Below, piece by piece: positions 14,101 through 47,761 of a stretch of 64,000 bases of DNA. Numbering within the stretch: the stretch's first letter is position 1; the number at the start of each line of letters is the position of its first letter. Made by a program: the position numbers and the translations under genes. The notes under the pieces were generated by a model. It was given only the letters and a program-made list of their open reading frames with translations, had not been told where the DNA came from and did not search any database. The stretch spans positions 310,001-374,000 of the forward strand of contig JAWWNJ010000168.1 in the NCBI GenBank assembly GCA_037176885.1. Reading direction: 5' to 3'. Source of the stretch: Favolaschia claudopus. Lineage: Eukaryota; Basidiomycota; Agaricomycetes; Agaricales; Mycenaceae.

Positions 14101-17100
14101 TCCATACCATCCTCGCCGTAGACGAATTGGATGAGATCACCGAGGGAGTTCCGGACCGTCCCATCGTAGCACACCATGACGTCCTCCAGCGCTTTCACCA
14201 ATCGCCGTTGGATGTAACCCGTCTCCGCAGTTTTGATAGCGGTATCAATCAGACCTTCACGTCCGGCCATGGCGTGGAAGAAGAACTCCTGCGGCGTGAG
14301 TCCCCGAAGGTAGGAGTTCTCAACGAAGCCACGGGCCTCAGGACTGAAATCGTCTTTGGTGAAGTGGGGAAGCGTCCGATGCCGAAAGCCGAAAGGGATA
14401 CGACGCCCTTCCACACTCTGCTGCCCCACACAGACGGACATCTGGGAGATGTTGATGAACGAGCCCTTCGAACCGGCAACCACCATCTGCTTGACATTAT
14501 TATCCTCCTTCAAGTTCTTCTGCGCGTATTGTCCAGAATCGTCACGAGCAACATTGAGCTCGCGCTCCACCATCTTCTCAAAGGATTCGCGAATCGTCAT
14601 ACCGGGAGCAGCCTTCAGCCGATCATGCGTGGCATCCTCGATGATCTTGACCACATTCTCTTTGCATGATGCGATTTTCTGTGTGATGAAGGACATGGTC
14701 CCGCGATCAGCGATAGTATCGCCGATACCAATGCTGAAGCCATTGTGGAACAACCAGTAGTTGACGACCATTTGCAACCCAGTGAACAGCTGCCGTGTGG
14801 CCTCCGGCCCCTTCTCGCGGAAAACGACATGAACGAGACCGCCCTGCGAAGCACCAACAGTCTTCTTCTCCACAATTCCGAAGATAATCTCGCCATTTTC
14901 GATGAGCATCCCATCGTCGAGTGGAGGATTTGCCCTGTTGGCTTTATCGTCCGGATTTCGCGTGATGTTGATACCACGAGGGATGACGAGACTGAGAATT
15001 TGTTTGCCCGACCACAACGGCTTAGGCTTGATTATGGCGGGGATAGGAATCGTCCCGTCCCATTCCGGTACCCATAGGAGGATGTTCTGGACTTGGTTCC
15101 AATCCAAGAACGTATCTCGAAGCGTGAACTTTCGGATACCGCATAACGTGTCCTGGACGATGCCCATGACGGGCTTGTTAGCCTGCGGCGAGATGATCTA
15201 GAAGAAGGTCAAGAACAGGGGTCAAGAAGGTCAAGAACAGGACTTGAAAATGTGCAAGGAACTTGCCTGTCGAGGAACCCATGCGATCTGACTGAGCTCA
15301 GCTCTCGTTTCTTCGCTCTGGGGCACACTAGAACACAAAATAAGAATGCAGCCTCCTCAGCTCTAGTATCCACTTACTGCATGTTCATCTCATCGCCATC
15401 GAAGTCGGCGTTATACGGAGGTGTACTAAAATAGGTATAACAAAACGCCGCTTGCCTCGTCAACTAAGTAAACTTACACAGAAAGGTTAAGGCGGAAGGC
15501 TATGACAAAATCAGTCGGATACATGATAGAAGGCGGCAAAACTCACTTGAATATGGCATTAACTTAACTCGATGACTCATCATACTCATTTTGTGCAAAC
15601 TAGGCTGCCGATTGAATAACACGAAGCTGAGGATGACGATTAGCATAGCATAGGGAGTCACGTTAGGGCAATCAACTTACTCCCCGTCCTTGAGATGCCG
15701 CTCGACAATCCAGCCATACTGCAGAAAGGCGTCTGCACGCTTGTTATACCGCAAGTCGATCCGCTCTCCAGTATCTCGAACAACATAACGGGCACCAGGA
15801 TAAGCTGTCGGACCGTTGCGAACAAGCTCCTGCAAATAGCTGATATTGTACGGCGTCACTGTAAAGGGTTTAGCTTCTCGTCGAAGAAGGCAGAAAGAGT
15901 ACTGCCACAGACCTCGTTCTGGATACGTCAAATTCATTGCGATACTCTTCGGCACGCCAACCTCGTCCAACTCCAAATTAGGATCACCCGTGATCACAGT
16001 ACGAGCCGAAAAGTCGACACGTTTGCCCATCAAGTTACCCCGCAGACGGCCCTCTTTTCCTTTTAGCCGCGCACGAATTGACTTCACAGGACGACCGGAC
16101 TTTTGCAGCGCTTGGGGAATGCCAGCAATGTCATTGTCCATGTACGTAGCGACGTGGAACTGCGAACAACATGTCAATACAAGGAGAACATTCAGCACCA
16201 AAGAACCAAGATCACCTGGAGAAGTTGCTCAAACTCTGTGATAACGTGAGCGGGCGTGCCCTCGTTCTCACACCGTCGGACATTGGCTGACGCCTTGATA
16301 ATGTCGCCGAGTTTGTATGTCAAATCATCCTCACTGCGCATGGCGCCGCCATCAACAGCAATACTCGGGCGAACGGGAGGCGGGGGGACAGGCATGACCG
16401 TGAGAATCATCCATTCCGGGCGCGCATACTCATCTGAAAGACCGAGAAGATGAAGATCTGAATCGGACATCTTTTTGAACGTGGTATAGATGTCCGCAGG
16501 GTTAAACAGCCTCTTTTCGGGCTGTATCGACTTCATCTCCTGCAAGCTTCGTCAGAAATTGCGAGCGGGGAGTAGTTAGTCTACAAACATCATCATCGTC
16601 TTTTGGCCGCTTGTACTGCGCAAAAAGCTTGAGAGCCTCCTTCCTAACCAGGGGCTGTACATAGCCGCATCCTCCGTGACCCTTCTTCGGCTCTTCTCCC
16701 TCCTCCGCGTTTTCATCCTTGGGATCATCCGGTTCGCAAATCATTTTGGTCTTGCAATGTGCCCAGACAACCGCCATACGACGTTTTGGGTCACGAATGT
16801 GGCGAATTTTGTCCGCGAAATTAGGGTCCGACTTACATTTCATGCAATCAATGACGGTTCAGAGAAAGGTTCAAAAGAAGAAATATAGGGATAAAAACGT
16901 CAGCGTGTGTTTCTACATTCAACGACACCGCGCAACACCACAAGGAACAACGAAGGAGGGAATACACCACATCGCGTGAAAGTGCAAGCCAGGTACGCCG
17001 CAAGAGCGATCGGCCACGCGGCACGACGTGCACATTTTTCGCACTCCTCGTTCTGCCCCCCATTTCACCACGCAACCGCGTGTCCGGCCAGCACCAGGCT

Positions 17101-17740
17101 GATGACGCGGCGATCAAGCGACCGAAAACGCGCGCCAACAAGACCACGGGTAGCGGAACGCCTCGATGTTCGAGAAACTGACGTGGTGCGGGTTTGGGGT
17201 TCACCACGATGTGGAGAGAGCCCCCAGAAATTTGGAAAGGTGGGGTGCGAAACGAGTAGAGGAAAGGGAGACCCAACTCACGATGTCTGCTTTTAATTTC
17301 CCACAATTTACGCAGATGCACTCCAATATCTTCTTAACCTTCAAAATAAAGCCTATGGCGCTGTTAGCAGCTAGAAATGATGAATAGTGAGAGAGATAGC
17401 AAACCAGGGTGATATACAGGGCGTGCGAGCTCGATATGCCCAAAGTGACCCGGACATTCCGACATCCCTTCACCACAAGTCTGACACTTGAAGTTCCGGT
17501 CGATGGTACCCATGCGCGGGTCCATGAGCCCACCCAGCTTGGGTTTGCGAGTGGTCTCGTCCATGACCTCGGGATGTTCTATCTTGGCTACAGAGTACGC
17601 TTTCTAAATGAGGGGTCAGGCTGAGTCAACAACTCAAAGAGACCACCACGCACGATTTCCTCTGGAGACAAGATTCCGAATTGCACTTCCTTCACTTTGC
17701 GGATCGGTGCCGCCGAATAGGCAAACTGGTGGCCCAACAT
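11169..17740 (-). CDS. RPB1: DNA-directed RNA polymerase II largest subunit RPB1
   Basis: This is the catalytic subunit of nuclear RNA polymerase II. The start ATG (17740-17738) gives [20 protein letters not shown] and, after an intron, the clamp core with [20 protein letters not shown] (zinc site). Further blocks are [36 protein letters not shown] and the catalytic [11 protein letters not shown] at 15380-15412, where an intron splits the following His codon. Next come the bridge helix/trigger loop region ([20 protein letters not shown] and [16 protein letters not shown]) and [14 protein letters not shown] before the tail. The CTD has roughly two dozen heptad-like units, many degenerate (SPFGT type) before better YSPTSP units. 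It ends SPSWD. The last 600 bp of CTD are cut by several phase-1 introns. The total is around 1,750 residues. The exon path at 11579-11706 is unresolved. Confidence 0.96.
11343..11354 (-). other. 12-nt microexon in the RPB1 CTD
   Basis: Between introns 11355-11416 and 11291-11342 lies a 12-nt exon flanked by CCCCAG and GTCAGT. With its phase-1 neighbours it restores unbroken [17 protein letters not shown] heptads. Skipping it removes four residues without changing frame. Confidence 0.75.
16832..17281 (-). other. Unusually long (450 nt) early intron in RPB1
   Basis: The donor GTGAGT follows LKADI and the acceptor GTAAG precedes [18 protein letters not shown]. Most introns here are near 50 nt. 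It is GC-rich in the middle and open in one frame for 157 codons, but with no family motif. Confidence 0.6.
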
Positions 17741-18275: not shown

Positions 18276-20486
18276 TCACCGCAACTCCAGTGGGGGTACC
18301 CAGTCAGGAATCTTGCCCCACTCAAACTTGTCCGCACGAAACGCCTGTACTACCCGCTCGGGCAGCATCGACAAGTAGTTTGGCGGCAATTGGCTATCGT
18401 ACGGTGTGAGACCCGGCTTGAAGCTCACTCTCGCGTTCTTGAAGTCGGGCGGAGGTGGCGCCTTGGATGACGTGGATGACGAGGGAGCACTTGTTATGCC
18501 AAATGCTGAGGTTGGTTGGGTAGGTTTGCCAAATGCATTGACAGGTTGCTGCTGCGACAAGTTCCCGAATGCAGAGGTGGGTTGCGGCTGCGATGCTGCG
18601 CCAAACGCAGAGGCTGGTGCGGCATTGCCAAACGCAGAATTAGCGGATGGTTGTGAAAACGCGGATGTCGTGGGCTGTCCGAAAGCAGAAGGCTTAGCAG
18701 ATGCAAACGCAGAGGATGCAGACGCCGGGCTTGTTGTCTGCTGTCCAAATGCCGAAGCTGGTGGATTGGCGTTGGATGGGTTGGTCGCAAATGCACTGGA
18801 GCCTGAATTGTTTGAGAATGCGGATCCTCCATTTCCAAAAACGGAGGATTGGTTTGAGTTTGCAGCAAGTTGGCCAAAGGCTGAAGGTGCTCCAAAGGCG
18901 GAGGCCGTAGCGGGAGCACCAAATGCAGATTGAGTTGCGGGAGCAGCAGGAGCGCCGAACGCAGACTGAGTTGCCGGAGCACCAAACGCGGACTGGGTTG
19001 AAGCAGCTGTTCCAAAAGCAGACTGTGCGGGAGTAGTGGCAGGTCTCCCAAACGCAGATTGGGCTGGCGCACTCCCCAAAGATGATTGCCCAAACACAGA
19101 TGGTTTGCCAGCAAAAGCGGAAAACGCCGTGGACGGATTTGTTGTCTGCTGCTGCCCGAATACGGATCCCGAAGGGTTGGCTGGCTGAGTCGAAAACGCA
19201 CTACCGTTAGAGTTGCTCGAAAACGCCGAACCACCACCACCGAACGCAGATGTTGCGGGTTGAGCTTGAGCTCCGAACCCCGACGGCGCCCCGAAGACGG
19301 AGGTCGTGGCAGGAGCACCGAATGCAGATTGGGTCGCGGGAGCGGCAGCACCGAATGCAGATTGTGTTGCTGGAGCGGATGCACCAAACACAGATGGCGT
19401 ATTCGATGCGGCGGCGCCGAACCCAGACTGTCCAAAGACGGAGCCGCCGTTCGCACCTGAGTTTGCGCCACCACCAAATACAGAGGATTTACCAGCAAAC
19501 GCAGAGAAACCGCCTGGACTAGCTGCGGGTGCAGAGCTTGCATTCGCACCAGCCCCGAAAGTGGAGTTATTTGTGGCAAATGCAGAGAATCCACCAGTGG
19601 CGGGTTTGGCAGGTGTGGCCGAACCAAACGCGGAGGGAGTCGCTGCTGTCGAGAAGGCGGATTGACCAAAAGCCGGCTGCCCAAACCCTGATTTACCGAA
19701 AGCGCTGCCGCCTGTCGTGATGCCAGTGCCACCAAAAGCGGAAGTCGAAGCTGGAGCAGGCCCTCCTCGACTGTTATTTGTCGCTTGCTCAAAAACTTTG
19801 AACGAATTGCTTAATGCGTTCTACAAGAAAGATGAGGTGACAATTGGTGACCCAGAGCGAGGAAACTGACGGAAAGCACTTGTTGAGCCGCATTTATCTG
19901 AGTTGTTTCGTAGGCAAACTGAAAACCTTCATGAGACGATTACTGTGTGCCAAACCGACCAACATACATATTCCTCCAAACGTCCTGCTTTCCCTGCGGT
20001 GGCGGCCTTAACTCTCAACTCTTCAGGAGACTGGTCAAGATTTGAGATGACCGTAGGCTCATATTTGGCAGGCCCATAAGAGGTGAGTGGCCACGTCGGT
20101 TTCTCTTTAGTGAGATCGGCTACAATGGACTCGGCTCTAATTCTCTGGTTGAGAACAAATGGAAAGGATAAAAGAACTCCACGCACGTAAACTGGCCAAC
20201 TTTGATATCTGCACCAGGACGAATGTATGTTTGGTCTTTGCCCGTATTCAGTTCACTCGATCGCGAAAGAGATTGAATGTATGTACTCACTGCCGCCAAC
20301 ATGTGTTTGGTCTTTGCCAATATTCAGTTCACTCGATCGCAAAAGAACTCAAATGTACTCACTGCCGCCAACATGCTCATTCTTGCAAGCCGTTCCGTAT
20401 CTACATCGTCCTTGTTGGAAGAACTGACAAATTGCCTGAAGACCGCGTTAACTTGCCACCATCGACGCCAAGACGGCGCTCACCAT
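18276..20486 (-). CDS. NUP42: FG-repeat nucleoporin of the NUP42/AMO1 type with N-terminal CCCH finger
   Basis: This nucleoporin sits at the cytoplasmic face of the pore and aids mRNA export with Gle1/Dbp5. The ATG (20486-20484) stands alone before a 48-nt intron (20436-20483). The next exon gives [21 protein letters not shown], a C-x7-C-x5-C-x3-H zinc finger. Two near-identical introns (20312-20362, 20236-20290) and a 21-nt exon follow, encoding a repeated NQT(H/Y). Then come [20 protein letters not shown] and [16 protein letters not shown], the conserved AMO1-type block, and [19 protein letters not shown] after two more introns. A long FG region has dozens of SAFG/SVFG units. The tail [17 protein letters not shown] is the conserved C-terminal Gle1-contact-type motif of this family. 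The exact junction between DIK and the RAESIVADL exon has two possible solutions. Confidence 0.9.
20228..20375 (-). repeat. Tandem 76/72-bp duplication spanning an exon-intron-exon junction in NUP42
   Basis: Copies lie at 20228-20303 and 20304-20375, directly abutting. The first 43 positions differ at three sites, the last 23 are identical, and only a 6-10 nt stretch inside the intron diverges. Each copy contains exon end, GTGAGT donor, intron, AAAG acceptor and exon start. The result is two phase-1 introns and an extra 21-nt exon. Confidence 0.9.
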
Positions 20487-23029: not shown

Positions 23030-23350
23030 AACCCAGAGCGTTGACGCGTTCAGTTTTGAGACGCGGCTTGAGGTCTTGAGGTTGATGCCTTGACGCGCCC
23101 ATCTTGACGCGCGAGTTGAAGCCTTGACGCGCCAGAGCTTGAGCGCGGCTTGAGGCCCAGCTTGATGCCTGAGGTCTTGAGGGTGAGGTCTTGACGCGTC
23201 CAGTCTTACGACGCGAGTTGAAGCCTTGAGATTGAAGCCTTGACGCGCGTGTCTTGAGGCGCGACTTGAGGTCTTGAAGTTGAGGCGTCGAGGCTTGAGA
23301 CGCGTCTTGAGGCCATGAAGCGCCTTGAGCAGTGTCCCACTGAGGTCTTG
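23030..23350. repeat. Degenerate minisatellite block 1
   Basis: Units of roughly 34-67 nt begin with TTGACGCG and contain CTTGAGRCGCG and a CTTGAGGTCTTGAGGTTG-like stretch. About five or six diverged units are visible. On the minus strand, all units read as CAAG/TCAA-rich with few stops, producing spurious open frames. The block ends with CCCACTGAGGTCTTGAA, which recurs near block 3. Confidence 0.75.
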
Positions 23351-23639
23351 AATGGTGTCGCAGAAGATCCAGAGACTCGGAGAGTGGGCGAGACTGCAAC
23401 TGTGGACGACGAACGTCAGTACGATTTCATAAGATGAAGAGAAAATCCAACGCACCGAGCTGCAACAAACGGAGCCATACGACCAGGCGAGGATGCAAAA
23501 ATGAGCAAGGCGAGATGAGTTGAGAGTCGGTGGGTGCTGCTGGTAAAACCAACCTAGGCGAGGTGGAGAAGAGTGAGTTTCGAGACGTTGGGGAGGGTGA
23601 CTGTTACACACCGAACGCGATGAAGGCGCGACGACGAGA

Positions 23640-23790
23640 AATACAAGGACAAGTCTTGAAGTTGAGGCCTTGACGCGCATCGCCATGTCTTGTGGCGCGG
23701 GTTGAAGCCTTGACGCACCGAGTCTAGCAGCGCGACGTGAAGCATTGAGGTTGATGCTTTGACGCGTAAGGCCTTGAGACCATCAGCAAA
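23640..23790. repeat. Degenerate minisatellite block 2
   Basis: The same unit as in block 1 appears about three times (TTGACGCGCAT, TTGACGCACCG, TTGACGCGTAAG) with the linking GAAGTTGAGGCC segment. Confidence 0.65.
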
Positions 23791-24114
23791 TCTACAATTT
23801 GATTGCCGTGTTGTGGCTGTTGTTACGCGTTGTCGCGTTGTGCACAACAAGCCCTGCCAAAAGCTACTACTTTGTGCCCTCCCCTCCGTTCACTGTCGAC
23901 CTCAATGATGTTTAGCAAGGTAGGAATATTCCAAAATCACACATAGCATTCACCTTCGTGGCATAATCAGCACTTTTTCAAAGAGTTTTGTGGTGCCAAG
24001 ACTGCTTGTTGTCAAAAAGCTGATCCGTGTTGTCGATGCAACGCATTGTCGTATTGTCAGCTGTTTTTTGCCGTTGTTAGGCGTTGTATACAACAGCACA
24101 ATAAAAATGTCAAA

Positions 24115-24370
24115 ACACTGATGACGCGGCTTGAGGTCTTGAGGTTGCTGCCTTGACGCGCATATATTGCGGCGCGGCTTGACATCTTGACGCACCAGAG
24201 CTTGAGACGCGGCTTGAAGCCTTGAAGTTGATGCGTTGACGTGCATATCTTGCGGCGCGGATTGAGATCTTGAGGTGTCTTGAGCAGTCTCCCACTGAGG
24301 TCTTGAACTTGGGTTCTGAGGCGCCTTGAGCAGTTTCCCACTGAGGTCTTGGATAGCGACGGCGAGGGCT
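24115..24370. repeat. Degenerate minisatellite block 3
   Basis: About five units like blocks 1 and 2 are followed by two copies of CCCACTGAGGTCTTG (near 24290 and 24337). The order of minisatellite, CCCACTGAGG tail and then a segment with GGCGAGATGAG is shared with block 1, so blocks 1 and 3 look like two diverged copies of one larger element. Confidence 0.7.
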
Positions 24371-32841: not shown

Positions 32842-33073
32842 TAGATGGTGGTGGTGGTGGTTATGAGTATGAGTTGTTGCCGCCGCAGTGGACGTCACCG
32901 TCACAGCTGAAGGCTGCTTTGCTGACTAAGCAACTCTTTGGAAAATTCTAGTTCATCGAATCATCTCAAGCGCAGCTCATTCAGAGTAGTTTCAATGCAA
33001 AGAATGCGATCCATTTGGAAATAACAATACAGATGCAAGATGTGGTACAACAACAACAGTATGAGATCCACGT

Positions 33074-36000
33074 TTAGAAAGCTGTCGTAAAATCGCGATA
33101 CGCCTCAAGCTCCATAATGCCTTGCTGCGATTCAGACGACTCCGGGGCCGCAGCGGCGGAAGCCTCAATTGTACTGAGGAATCGACGGATGGCCTGCAGA
33201 CGGAAGTGCCAATTGGTGGTGATTTCCCGGCGCTCGGTGTCCCGCTCCGTCTGCGAGAACACCGACGCAAACCAATCAGCCAACAGACTGAGCTGACGCA
33301 CCAACAGCGGAAGGTTTTTGGCCGATATCAGCTTGAAGTGGCCAACAGGGGCAAAATCAGGCATGTCCGGTGCACGTTGCACGGTGAGCTTGAAGTATTC
33401 GTTTTCGTGAAGATTGTTAGAGAACGCCGCGATAGCGCCGAGGGAGTGTGGTTCGATGACAATGTTAACAAACTGGAATTGGGTGTTAAGTGTGTCAAAT
33501 CGGTATGGTTTTCCCGAGTCGTTCCAGACGATGCGGACGAAGTCGTTGCCAATGTGGCGTTTTTTGTTCGTGAATTGTGGGTCGTGAGCGTTGCAGGGCA
33601 TCATTGTCGCAGTGTGATACAGAATCTGACCGATATCGTCCCACCATGCGTATGCATACTCGCCGTCTTCATCAGGATCTAATCCACCAGCATAGACGTC
33701 AACCTGACCGCGCAAATTGATCAATCTCCCTATTCCCTCCAAAAATCGGGTATAGGCAGGCGAGCCGTGGGTGTTGCTCAGAATCTCCTGCTCTGTTGTC
33801 TGCCCTGGAGCGACATACATGATCCCCACTTTGTGCGTATCAATGACTGGTATGCGATCGAGGCTACTGAAGAATTTGGAGAGACCGGGTGAGTTGATTA
33901 GTTTGTGACGTTTCTTGGAGCTATTGTAACGGTGGGACACCTGAAGGGCAATGAAGGACGGGTCGAATTCGACTTGCTTCCGTCTCTGGGATGGAGCCGT
34001 CCCGCTCCAGACATAACCAGTGAGAGGATCAGGCGGAGGGATGTCCGGGTCAGAATCGCTCGGCGCCAACAAAGCGCGGACATTCTCTGACTGCATCAAC
34101 GCGTCAAGCTCATGAGCCTACTCAGATGCTGAGAAACTCACCGAGTCCGAGTCTGCCGCAGCTGGCTCAGGCTGGTCTGGGGAAGGTGTCTAATATGCTG
34201 TCAGTCAAAGCAAAGCGATCGAGAAAGCGAACAACTTACAGGAGGATCACTGGCGGAAACTGGAATCTCATCTTGAACAGCTCGAGGCCGAGAACATTCA
34301 CGGTCCATGATCAAAGCCGCAGGAAGAGATACAACATCAGGATCTACATCTCCCAAACCAACCATCGGAACGTTTTCAAGTCGGCACAGCATCTTGGTAT
34401 AGCCTGACGGTCCTCGAGAAAGAACTTCAAACCACCCCAACCGTTTGAGCGTCCGGATAGTGATAATCGAGTGTCCAACAGCCCAAGTTTTCTCAACAAC
34501 ACCATCTTCCGCCGCCAAACTCGGTCCCGTCGGATTCATCACAATATCCGACACGGGTGAATTCGCTGGTCGCGGGTCGGCACTGGCATATGTATAGCGC
34601 TCCAGCCAGTCAAAGCAAACCTCCGTCGGTCCGTCCACCGATTTCCCTTCCTCGTTGGCGAGAATGAGTTGTCTGATTATGTAAGAAACGTGTTTGTGGC
34701 GGTCCGGAAGCTTGAGAGCGAGGAACCAGACATAGACTGTGGAGTAAGCCAGGATACGAACATGTTCCGAGAGAGCCCAGGATCCTGTCGGCGTGTCCCG
34801 GTTCGCGTTATGGTGCTGGAGGTACTGCAGCGCCACGCCGAAAACCATCTTGAAGTCGGCCTCCGTGAAATTGGCATATAGAGGCCGTAATGAACCAACG
34901 ATAGACAGGAATCCAAGGATATGCACGGCCATGTCCGGGCTGGACATGATCTGGGAGAGCTTCTGGAGTATTCTGGACATGAACTTCGTCACGGACGGCG
35001 TGAGTTCGAATGCGGCAAGAGATAGTGCGTGCAAGCAACATTTAACCGTGGCTGGCTGCGCATCGAGTCCGTTTTCAAAAACCTCCACCAACTTGTGCTG
35101 CTGCCCCAGATCGAAACACCGCTGGTACCCCACTAAAACAGATAGAGTATGATACGCCAGCCCATGAGCGTCCCTCACTTTCAGTCCAGTAGGCCACCTC
35201 TCGACATGGGAACCCAAGCCACCGTTGAGAATCCCGTTGCAAAGTGCCGTGAGAAGCTTCGAACAGGCCAGGCGAGAGTTCGGTCCGCAGAACAAGTGCT
35301 TGTTGGATAGTTGATTCGGCAGATGGCAGAGAAGGTATGAAAGAACCTCCCAGTTGTGTTCCTTCTCGAGGATAGCAAGGATCGCGTTCAGATACAACGA
35401 GATCGGTAGTATCAGTCTATTCTGCGGGTCGACTGGGTCGAAGAGCGCAAGACCTTCACTGGGAGTATCCGCATCGACTACGACGAACGGGAGAGTCTCG
35501 GGGATAGTCCACAGCGGGTCCCTAGGCTTTGGTGTAGGAGCCTGACCGGCATCTACGAGTCGGGATCGGCTTCGACTTGTCCCTGAGCCACCGGTGGCAA
35601 CCGCACCACGCCCTCGTGGACGACGGGCGTCTCGTTCGTGAGGAACCCGAGGTCGTGCAGAGCGCAAATCCGATGCAAGATCAGTGGGATCAGTCTGCGA
35701 AGGCCGTCGCGAATCGGGCGGTGGCGAGGAGACACGGTAGATGAGAGCTCCTAACATCGCGACTAGTCCATGCGGATCGTATTCCGCTTGAACGAAGTAC
35801 AGACGATGGTCGCGATCCGACCTCAGCCGCATCATGAACTGAAGAATGGCGAGTCGGATTCTGGCTGACCTCGACTCGTCTAGAAGTTTTAGGAGTGAAC
35901 AAAAGACGTGAATTGAGACTTCGAGGTTGCTGGACTCCAACGCATAGGGCGTGAACGTGAGCTGGGTGAAAATGAGGACAAGGGCAGACACGGCAGCAAC

Positions 36001-40658: not shown

Positions 40659-41806
40659 TTAGAGGGCCTGGGCGCCAAGGAGGGCAACAAAGGCAGCGGT
40701 CGCCAACAGCTTGTTGAAGCTGAGGGACATGGCGTCGCTGGAACCACCCTGGCCGATGGCACCGGAAATTTGCTTGGAGTTGTCCGAGTCGTCGGCGGAA
40801 GAGCCAGCAGAGCTGCCGGCGACGTTACCAGCATTGGCAACGGCCTCGGTGGGGACTGGCGGCGGGGCAGCCGAGGACGAGGACTTGGCAGCCGTGGATG
40901 AAGGCTTCGCCGAAGAGGACTTCTTCGTGGACGACGACGGCTTAGCAGACGACGAAGGCTTCGAGGAAGTCTTAGGCTTGGCAGAGCTGGTAGTCTTTTT
41001 CGTCGTCTTGGGGGCGAACTCTTGGACGTGAGTGGTAGAGGTGGTCTTGGGCGGGGGAGGGGGAGTGGTCGTGTGCTTCTTCGTGGTGGTGGTCTTGGGA
41101 GGGGGAGGAGGGTCATCGTGGTCATCACCTCCGTCGTTACCATCGGCGTAAGACCACGAGCCGTGGAGAACACCGACATCCAAGTCGCCGTTGGTGAAGA
41201 ATTTGAAGAGATCCTTGGTGAAGTCGAGCTGACCAACGTCCGGGCAGGTCGCGCACTTGATGAAGCTCAGAAAAAGATTCTGGCCAGAGAATAAGACAAC
41301 TGCATACCTGATCGACGCAAGTCGCAGTGGTGGTCTTTCCATTCACCGTGATCTTAAGCTGACGGCCACAGCATGCAGAACCGTCACCCCATTGCTGTGA
41401 ATAACGTTGAGCTTCGGCACATGATACCAAACAAGGTCAAGATTTACGTTGTAGCCCATCGCGACGTACTAATAGAGTGTGAGCCCCTAAGTCAGCTAGA
41501 AAAGAGAGAAAATACGTACCCAGTCGCTGTCCTTGTGGTTTTTGCCCGTGCAGGCATCACTTGAAGAGGAGAGAAGTTGACGCGTGTACAGAGAAAAAAG
41601 AACAAAGGGACGCACGGGCCAGTGTCGGTGGGATACCAGGTGAACTCTTTGTTCGTGAACTGAGCGCGCTTGTCCAAGGCGTGCTCGGTAGTGTTGTCGG
41701 CGCGCTTTGCAATGGCTGCGTGGTGGGAGCGAGCCTGCTGCTGGTTGTGGGAAGCCATAACCGAGGCGGCGGAGAGGATGAGAGCGAGGGTGGAGGAGGA
41801 GAACAT
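40659..41806 (-). CDS. Secreted double-psi beta-barrel protein with Ser/Thr-rich stalk, probably GPI-anchored
   Basis: The start (41806-41804) gives a signal peptide MFSSSTLALILSAASVMASH. A KR-containing propeptide-like stretch precedes FTWYPTDTGPDACTGKNHKDSDWYVAMGYN, assembled over short introns. WGDGSACCGRQLKITVNGK then leads into TTTATCVDQCATCPDVGQLDFTKDLFKFF and GVLHGSWSY. This is the cysteine-rich barrel seen in RlpA/barwin/expansin-like fungal proteins, with the Asp of QLDFT in the expected place. A long Pro/Thr then Ser/Lys-rich stalk follows, and a C-terminal hydrophobic tail (LLATAAFVALLGAQAL) preceded by small residues fits a GPI signal. Such proteins are wall-associated, and catalytic activity is not established. 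About 310 residues, four or five introns. Confidence 0.8.
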
Positions 41807-42714
41807 TGTGGTTAGAGAGAGAGATGTGTGAATGAACGTGGATATACGCTGGGGAGCGTTTAAGGGCTTGAAGCCAACGTGGAGGAGGGGAGGAGGAGGA
41901 GGGAGAGACGGTGAATGTCGACTGGAGTCTTTAGGTTGTCAGGGTTTCGATGCGAACAATTGTCACATCAATCTGCGGTGACATCACGCCGCGATTTTGT
42001 ACCTCGCTTTGATCTCTCTCCTCATTGTCCATGTCACCCATTATTTGCTTTTTTCACCCCTAGTGTCCTGCCAACCATACACAGAGGGTGAAGAACAATA
42101 ACCTGCACCTCACCCTCACCCTTGGATTTTTTTTCAGCCCAAAAACACGCCAACGTCGCGTGTTGGCGCTTGACGATGACAGCGGTTAACAACAACCCTC
42201 ATGCCCGAAGAAGAATTTCAAGGTCTTGGCCGAAGCAAGGCGCGCTTGCAAGAGCGAATCGGAAGAGAAATCGTGCGTTGATTTCCACGATCCGAGAACA
42301 TTTCTCTCTCGGAGGACTCCGACTCCGACCTGGGTATTCGGGCTTGCATTGCAGCGGCCAAGTCCAGATTATTATAAATATGTCACTTTTCTCAGTCATT
42401 GTCAGCGCTGACGGACGGCAGTTGAGACGTCTCAGACCACCGATGGTTATTATTCTTGACTCAGGTTCGAAGGGCCAAGAGGTTGGCTAGAACGTCCATC
42501 CGATCGGCGTTCGCCGTCAAGTGCAACTCGCTCGATAAGGGAATTGTTCTTGGACGTTTTGATGGTTTTGATGGGGAATCTCGCGACGCGTATCACCGAA
42601 ATTTTCTCTAACTTGGCAAAGTGGGGCGTTGCACAAAAATTTGGTTTCTAGTAAGTAGTAGATGGCCATCCTATATCCGAAATTTCCAGTTAAGAGATCC
42701 TCAGTTGAGTACCT
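41807..42714. other. Intergenic: DPBB gene promoter and ABC transporter 3' flank
   Basis: About 900 bp. A GA/CT-rich stretch (41810-41910) precedes the DPBB start codon on the minus strand, with a weak TATATC near 41848. The remainder has no gene, RNA or repeat that I recognise. Confidence 0.5.
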
Positions 42715-47120: not shown

Positions 47121-47343
47121 ATTCGGCGCGGAATGGTGGTCTCTTTTGTACCAATCTCGTCTCTTCGCCAACCGCAAGGCTTTCCCTGCGTGAACTTGCG
47201 TGTAGGGTATCTGCTTGAGGTGTATGCCTGCAGGCTTTATTGTTCAGGTCGTCGTGGGCGGGTGAATCCCTGCACCCGAGATCCCATAGGCATCTGGCTG
47301 TGCATTTTACCTTGGCCGTTATAAGGTGTACCAGTTTCCCTGC
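47121..47343 (+). repeat. Direct repeat copy 1 (about 220 bp)
   Basis: Starts ATTCGGCGCGGA and runs through TGCCTGCAGGCTTTATTG and GCATTTTACCTTG to CCAGTTTCCCTGC. Matches 47554-47761 with moderate divergence. The last 75 bp are repeated again immediately downstream (47341-47417). Confidence 0.7.
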
Positions 47344-47553
47344 ACCCGTGACCCCACGGGCATTTGGATGCGCATTTTACCTGGACGATTTTAAGGTGTA
47401 CCAGTTCTCCTGCAGCCATTCTCTTGCATGGGTTTGACTGCAGGAAATTACGGCCAACTTTTGACTTGCAGGCATTGTCTTCGCGGAATGTTACCATCCC
47501 AAATTCAATGGTGATGTTGTTTCTCTGGCACTTGAGATCTTGTCTCCCCCGCA

Positions 47554-47761
47554 ATTCGGCGTGGAGTGGTTGTCATTGTCTCCTCACCAGCTGCACATCT
47601 GTCTCTGTAGGATTTGTGTGTAGGGCTTTTGATTCAGTCATATGCCTGCAGGCTTTATTGCTCGGGCCCGTGTGTGCGGGTGAATTCCTGCACCCGTGAC
47701 CCCATAAATGTTTGGCTGTACATTTTACCTTGATGGTTATGAGATGTACCAGTTTCCCTGC
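47554..47761 (+). repeat. Direct repeat copy 2 (about 208 bp)
   Basis: Diverged second copy of 47121-47343, starting ATTCGGCGTGGA and ending CCAGTTTCCCTGC. The core TGCCTGCAGGCTTTATTG is identical in both. No coding function apparent. Confidence 0.7.

Follow-up and report, generated by a model that had tools for sequence, protein, structure and literature searches.

The Cryptococcus neoformans gene CNN00420 is presented in the relevant sections of Sharpton et al. (2008, PMC2395259) as an EST-supported case of intron gain by repeat expansion. Several copies of a repeat of about 107 nt, each composed of exon ends and one whole intron, provide this gene with extra near-identical introns, and the number of copies varies between strains. 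In Arabidopsis TOUCH3 (Knowles and McLysaght 2006), as summarized in parts of PMC4974935 and PMC2395259, tandem internal duplications detected by paralogue comparison copied an entire pre-existing intron together with flanking exon sequence. The passages of Ma et al. (2016, PMC4974935) on TOUCH3 treat it as multiplication of a pre-existing intron and not as creation of new introns, and they also cite Gao and Lynch (2009) for whole-intron multiplication by tandem duplication. The table of Yenerall and Zhou (2012, PMC3443670) excludes "simple duplications of pre-existing introns," and the pertinent parts of both papers separate intron multiplication from gains with new splice sites. The ATP2A1 gene (Hellsten et al. 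2011), as outlined in PMC4974935 and PMC3443670, acquired an intron by tandem genomic duplication in which exon sequence supplied the new splice sites and the protein could stay the same. In the potato RdRp gene described by Ma et al. (2016, PMC4974935), a single exon-intron boundary falls within the duplicated segment, and the gain involved activation of a cryptic exonic donor.

Here, we describe the tandem duplication of a segment with a complete intron in a NUP42-like gene, which lies in a 64,000-nucleotide stretch of DNA (the window). Like CNN00420, this is a basidiomycete gene in which the repeat consists of exon ends and one whole intron and in which the extra intron is nearly identical to its neighbor; the differences are that a single duplication of about 72 bp is involved, that it is present on all three contigs carrying the locus, and that splicing is predicted here from DNA. 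The likeness to TOUCH3, a plant gene, lies in the copying of an entire intron with flanking exon. As in ATP2A1, a tandem genomic duplication adds an intron to the gene, but in NUP42 both splice sites came with the intron that was already present, and the predicted protein is longer by seven residues. As in the potato RdRp gene, the duplicated segment crosses an exon-intron boundary, whereas no new splice site arose in NUP42. No AGGT was found at the junction and splice sites, and the classical model of tandem genomic duplication of an exonic AGGT does not apply because each unit has a donor and an acceptor of its own, with intron sequence between them. The case is one of multiplication of a pre-existing intron and not of creation under that model.

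An earlier note on this DNA had proposed intron gain by tandem duplication, with few clear natural examples. The duplication of a complete intron stands, but intron creation does not, and the claim of rarity overstates the novelty in light of what the cited parts of PMC2395259 and PMC4974935 report for Cryptococcus in 2008, with EST support, and for TOUCH3. The NUP42 duplication is real, well preserved, and ordinary in kind, a clean example of an already described route of intron gain. Intron additions whose source, boundaries, and relative age can be read from sequence are useful for estimating the rate of intron gain by simple duplication. Because this one is short, has clear breakpoints, and exists in three versions that help bound its age, it is also a good subject for testing whether splicing removes a doubled intron as two separate ones.

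Structure of the gene and of the duplication

Splicing by hand gave a minus-strand gene model of seven exons that encodes a complete protein of 635 amino acids, from an ATG at 20486 to a TGA at 18278-18276. Its six introns measure, in order, 48, 51, 55, 50, 49, and 50 nt, with the 51-nt intron transcribed before the 55-nt intron. The four introns outside the duplication (48, 50, 49, and 50 nt) are 48 to 50 nt long across all three contigs, referred to as C168 (the contig of the window), C15, and C1. The features of the locus are as follows.

20484..20486, minus strand: coding part of exon 1, the start codon ATG alone (gene model; same layout in C15 and C1)
20436-20483, minus strand: intron 1, phase 0, 48 nt (gene model)
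20363..20435, minus strand: exon 2, 73 nt, CCCH finger, ending in HVGG plus A (gene model; Pfam CCCH models)
20312..20362, minus strand: intron 2, 51 nt, GTGAGT...AAAG, phase 1, with an in-frame TGA (gene model, three-contig comparison)
20291..20311, minus strand: exon 3, a 21-nt mini-exon across the duplication junction, encoding NQTHVGG (gene model; 21 nt and frame kept in three of three contigs)
20236..20290, minus strand: intron 3, 55 nt (54 nt in C1), GTGAGT...AAAG, phase 1, with an in-frame stop (gene model, three-contig comparison)
20187..20235, minus strand: exon 4, 49 nt, starting with NQTY, which is also in the Mycena albidolilacea protein (gene model, protein alignment)
19968..20136, minus strand: exon 5, 169 nt, a conserved stretch aligning to the Mycena albidolilacea protein (gene model, protein alignment)
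19871..19918, minus strand: exon 6, 48 nt (gene model)
18276..19820, minus strand: exon 7, FG-repeat region and C-terminus, stop TGA at 18278-18276 (gene model; C-terminus similar in Hydnum protein P0002)
20304..20375, minus strand: repeat unit 1, 72 bp, exon 2 end, intron 2, and exon 3 start (Tandem Repeats Finder, alignment)
20228..20303, minus strand: repeat unit 2, 76 bp, exon 3 end, intron 3, and exon 4 start (Tandem Repeats Finder, alignment)

The predicted protein has a CCCH finger and an FG-repeat region, together with a second conserved stretch and a Hydnum-like C-terminus. NUP42 proteins have an N-terminal CCCH finger, FG repeats, and a conserved C-terminus. All of these are found here, with the CCCH and FG regions recognized by sub-cutoff Pfam matches (all seven families listed scored below the curated cutoffs; the CCCH matches lie inside residues 2 to 22) and the C-terminus shared with P0002. 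A protein search with residues 1 to 140 at E values up to 0.001 returned 5 of 151 candidates, one of which is named nucleoporin NUP42. The gene name is well supported because of the domain matches, the likeness of the C-terminus, the match to the Mycena albidolilacea protein, and this named homologue. As a separate observation, the lone ATG is cut off from the remaining coding sequence by a phase-0 intron of 48 to 49 nt in all three contigs (20436-20486).

The duplication consists of two abutting direct copies, one of 72 bp (20375-20304) and one of 76 bp (20303-20228), arranged head to tail at one locus on the minus strand. Each unit comprises 13 nt of exon end (CATGTTGGCGGCA), a GTGAGT donor, the intron, an AAAG acceptor, and 8 nt of exon start (ACCAAACA) and so holds, on the predicted gene model, one complete intron with exon sequence on either side. 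Tandem Repeats Finder placed the array at 20228-20375 (period 76, 2.0 copies, 88% matches) with a score of 218, the highest among its 12 rows for the window. When 2,555 abutting 76/72-bp pairs were scanned along the window in steps of 25 bp, the best pair began at 20226 (score, 101), and the runner-up elsewhere scored 85 at 24126. Pairwise alignment of the two units gave 67 identities in 76 columns, along with 5 mismatches and 4 columns with gaps; with a single 4-nt gap, as in an alignment of all six copies from the three contigs, there were 65 identities and 7 mismatches. The earlier note had described the same abutting copies and their parts correctly, and its count of 66 identical positions of 76 was right to within one by the pairwise alignment.

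In the flanks, no bases common to both breakpoints were seen at the duplication junction. None of the 15-mers of the repeat unit was found in the rest of the window. A search of the whole assembly with the unit at E values up to 10, using a program that skips simple repeats and very common words, returned three matches, all of them versions of the NUP42 locus, and none outside it.

Three versions of the locus and the age of the duplication

The assembly comprises 264.6 Mb in 460 contigs, among which C168, C15, and C1 match a 221-bp query from the NUP42 locus with 100, 99, and 93% identity, respectively. Both intron copies, the 21-nt exon, the GTGAGT donors, the AAAG acceptors, and an intact frame are present in all three. 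C15 and C1 carry private substitutions, and differences between the copies are fixed. C1 has a 1-nt deletion within intron 3 that leaves the AAAG unharmed, as expected of noncoding sequence. The end of exon 2 in unit 1 of C1 reads VDN, versus VGG in C168 and C15, which may be due to a later mutation or to exchange between units.

In a protein search, the assembly yielded 16 matches, only two of which lie outside the three versions (E values, 0.46 and 1.73). For each of the window stretches 16600-17700, 33000-34500, and 41000-42200, there is one match over the full length or nearly so on each of C168, C15, and C1, in addition to short partial matches elsewhere (two for 16600-17700 and four for 41000-42200). 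With all of the tested stretches lying on these three contigs, the pattern suggests three haplotypes or nuclei rather than a NUP42 gene family. The three contigs may belong to a single individual, as its haplotypes or nuclei, or may stem from a hybrid or a mixed sample. Synonymous divergence is 0.037 between C168 and C15, 0.088 between C168 and C1, and 0.104 between C15 and C1, and dN/dS values of 0.16 to 0.27, from NG86 values, indicate protein constraint across the three contigs. The order, orientation, and spacing of four tested stretches (window 16600-42200) differ between the contigs; for example, about 13 kb separates NUP42 from the 33- to 34.5-kb stretch on C168, compared with 39 kb on C15 and 59 kb on C1. 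Because of these differences, rearrangement and insertions between the three versions are suggested, unless contigs were misjoined.

The six unit copies, two per contig, cluster by position and not by contig in a tree without support values. Unit 2 has 4 nt that are absent from unit 1 on all three contigs, and three further sites share no base between the units, one of them also being variable within unit 2. Because this indel and these three sites separate the units on every contig, the duplication most likely predates the split of the three contigs. The mean distance between units is 0.138, compared with 0.098 between contigs within a unit, for a ratio of 1.41 whose bootstrap range (0.99 to 2.17) reaches 1. 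The event had been called recent, which is borne out by this ratio in relative terms only: the duplication appears to be older than the divergence of the three contigs but not much older than the present variation in the assembly.

We infer that the single-intron state is ancestral. The best match to residues 1 to 140 is a Mycena albidolilacea protein (P0001; 87 of 125 aligned columns identical), which reads ...CKNDHVQAGGGGGNQTYVRPG..., with one NQTY after a Gly-rich linker. Judged by the lineage of this one protein, the fungus most likely belongs in or near Mycenaceae. The NQTH/NQTHVGG repeat is absent at the matching place in this predicted protein, whose linker (QAGGGGG) differs, and a repeat of the NQTHVGG type is also absent in P0002. 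At the level of proteins taken from gene models, the homologues agree with one ancestral intron, although the mini-exon may have been overlooked in the Mycena albidolilacea model. A second protein search returned only the query itself among 70 candidates and no further mushroom NUP42 usable as an outgroup. From 18 candidates, a third returned only P0006, a fragment without the finger, and P0007, which is distant and has the finger but no repeat of the NQTHVGG type; neither is usable as a mushroom NUP42 outgroup. By eye, the public gene model for P0001 seems to lose the FG-repeat frame after about residue 120, and much of what follows is therefore probably mistranslated.

Predicted splicing of the doubled intron

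Splicing at matching sites in the two copies produces, on the gene model, two phase-1 introns, 51 and 55 nt long, that flank a 21-nt exon. The donors, acceptors, lengths, phase, and mini-exon agree with what the earlier note had claimed, as does the insertion of NQTHVGG after the CCCH finger in the predicted protein; the frame is kept in three of three contigs. The in-frame TGA that it had pointed out in the 51-nt intron is present, and the 55-nt intron likewise has an in-frame stop. Because both hold in-frame stops, neither intron could simply be retained in a full-length protein; the frame is kept either by removal of both or by removal of one 127-nt stretch. A pyrimidine is usual at acceptor position -3, and AAAG is without one, a point against the explanation proposed below.

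We propose that one head-to-tail genomic duplication of about 72 bp occurred in an ancestor of the three locus versions. The copied segment would comprise a complete intron, 51 nt long in unit 1, flanked by the final 13 nt of exon 2 and the initial 8 nt of the following exon. Because both copies carry complete splice signals, the two introns would be removed separately by the spliceosome, with each donor paired with the nearest acceptor. The junction would leave a 21-nt in-frame exon and thereby add NQTHVGG to the linker behind the CCCH finger, and a 4-nt indel would later have made the copies differ in length (51 versus 55 nt). By this route, NUP42 would have gained one intron through the multiplication of an existing one. 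That a single duplication of this kind, followed by two separately spliced introns and the NQTHVGG exon, is the explanation seems to us highly probable. Both introns are probably spliced, and the mini-exon is presumably included in at least part of the transcripts.

The identical donors and acceptors would also allow the first donor to pair with the second acceptor, and since the 21-nt exon is frame-neutral, skipping it would preserve the reading frame. If the mini-exon were always skipped, the gene would have one longer intron of 127 nt, an unchanged protein, and no intron gain. We regard this as improbable: two short introns are favored because the other four introns of the gene are 48 to 50 nt long, lengths that 51 and 55 nt fit and 127 nt would not, and short introns are usually recognized from the donor to the nearest acceptor. 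Within the mini-exon, both changes between C168 and C1 are synonymous, and no indels were found in the three contigs, versus one in intron 3 of C1; this argues weakly in the same direction, as the synonymous pattern is not significant (p about 0.11). The mini-exon could instead be a cassette that is included or skipped, giving two NUP42 isoforms that differ in linker length, a reading that overlaps with the proposed explanation. The duplicated identical splice sites, the frame neutrality of the exon, and its retention in three contigs are compatible with it, but no sequence feature points specifically to regulation, and we consider it possible though unlikely. The stronger version, in which the duplication gave rise to a cassette mini-exon that the three contigs keep because both linker lengths are used, is quite doubtful. 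If it were true, a cell could use the two interchangeable donors and acceptors to keep or leave out the seven residues that follow the CCCH finger of NUP42.

Adjoining near-identical introns could also have arisen if an introner-like element or other mobile intron had copied itself beside its source, and such elements have reportedly been found in fungi (PMC4457414). We assign this a very small probability, since no other place in the assembly matched the repeat unit in the search described above and since parts of the exons on either side belong to the repeat, which a tandem duplication predicts. Introner-like elements are expected as intron copies at many unrelated genes; the three matches obtained are all versions of the NUP42 locus. 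Short near-identical tandem copies can trouble assemblers, yet an assembly or sequencing artefact is very unlikely, to the point of being negligible, because both copies recur on three separate contigs, among which C15 and C1 show private substitutions, and because the two copies show fixed differences.

Other tandem repeats in the window and the genome

Three of the 12 tandem-repeat rows in the window, among them the NUP42 array and the one at 47267-47414, have periods of 40 to 300, as do 5 of the 22 rows in a 200-kb sample made up of 20 stretches of 10 kb from contigs C1 to C20. Because arrays of this period occur at these numbers in both, short tandem duplications are not rare in this genome, and the kind of mutation behind them is not unusual. 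At 47267-47414, a 70-bp unit is present twice, and by eye, a diverged-looking third copy lies at about 47680-47760. Open frames of at least 50 amino acids overlap 47267-47414 on both strands, and an Rfam search of the window, including this repeat, gave no matches at gathering scores. Several short tandem arrays with periods of 23 to 49 are located at 23081-24351, and this region matches C15 and C1 in numerous overlapping segments that have partly diverged.
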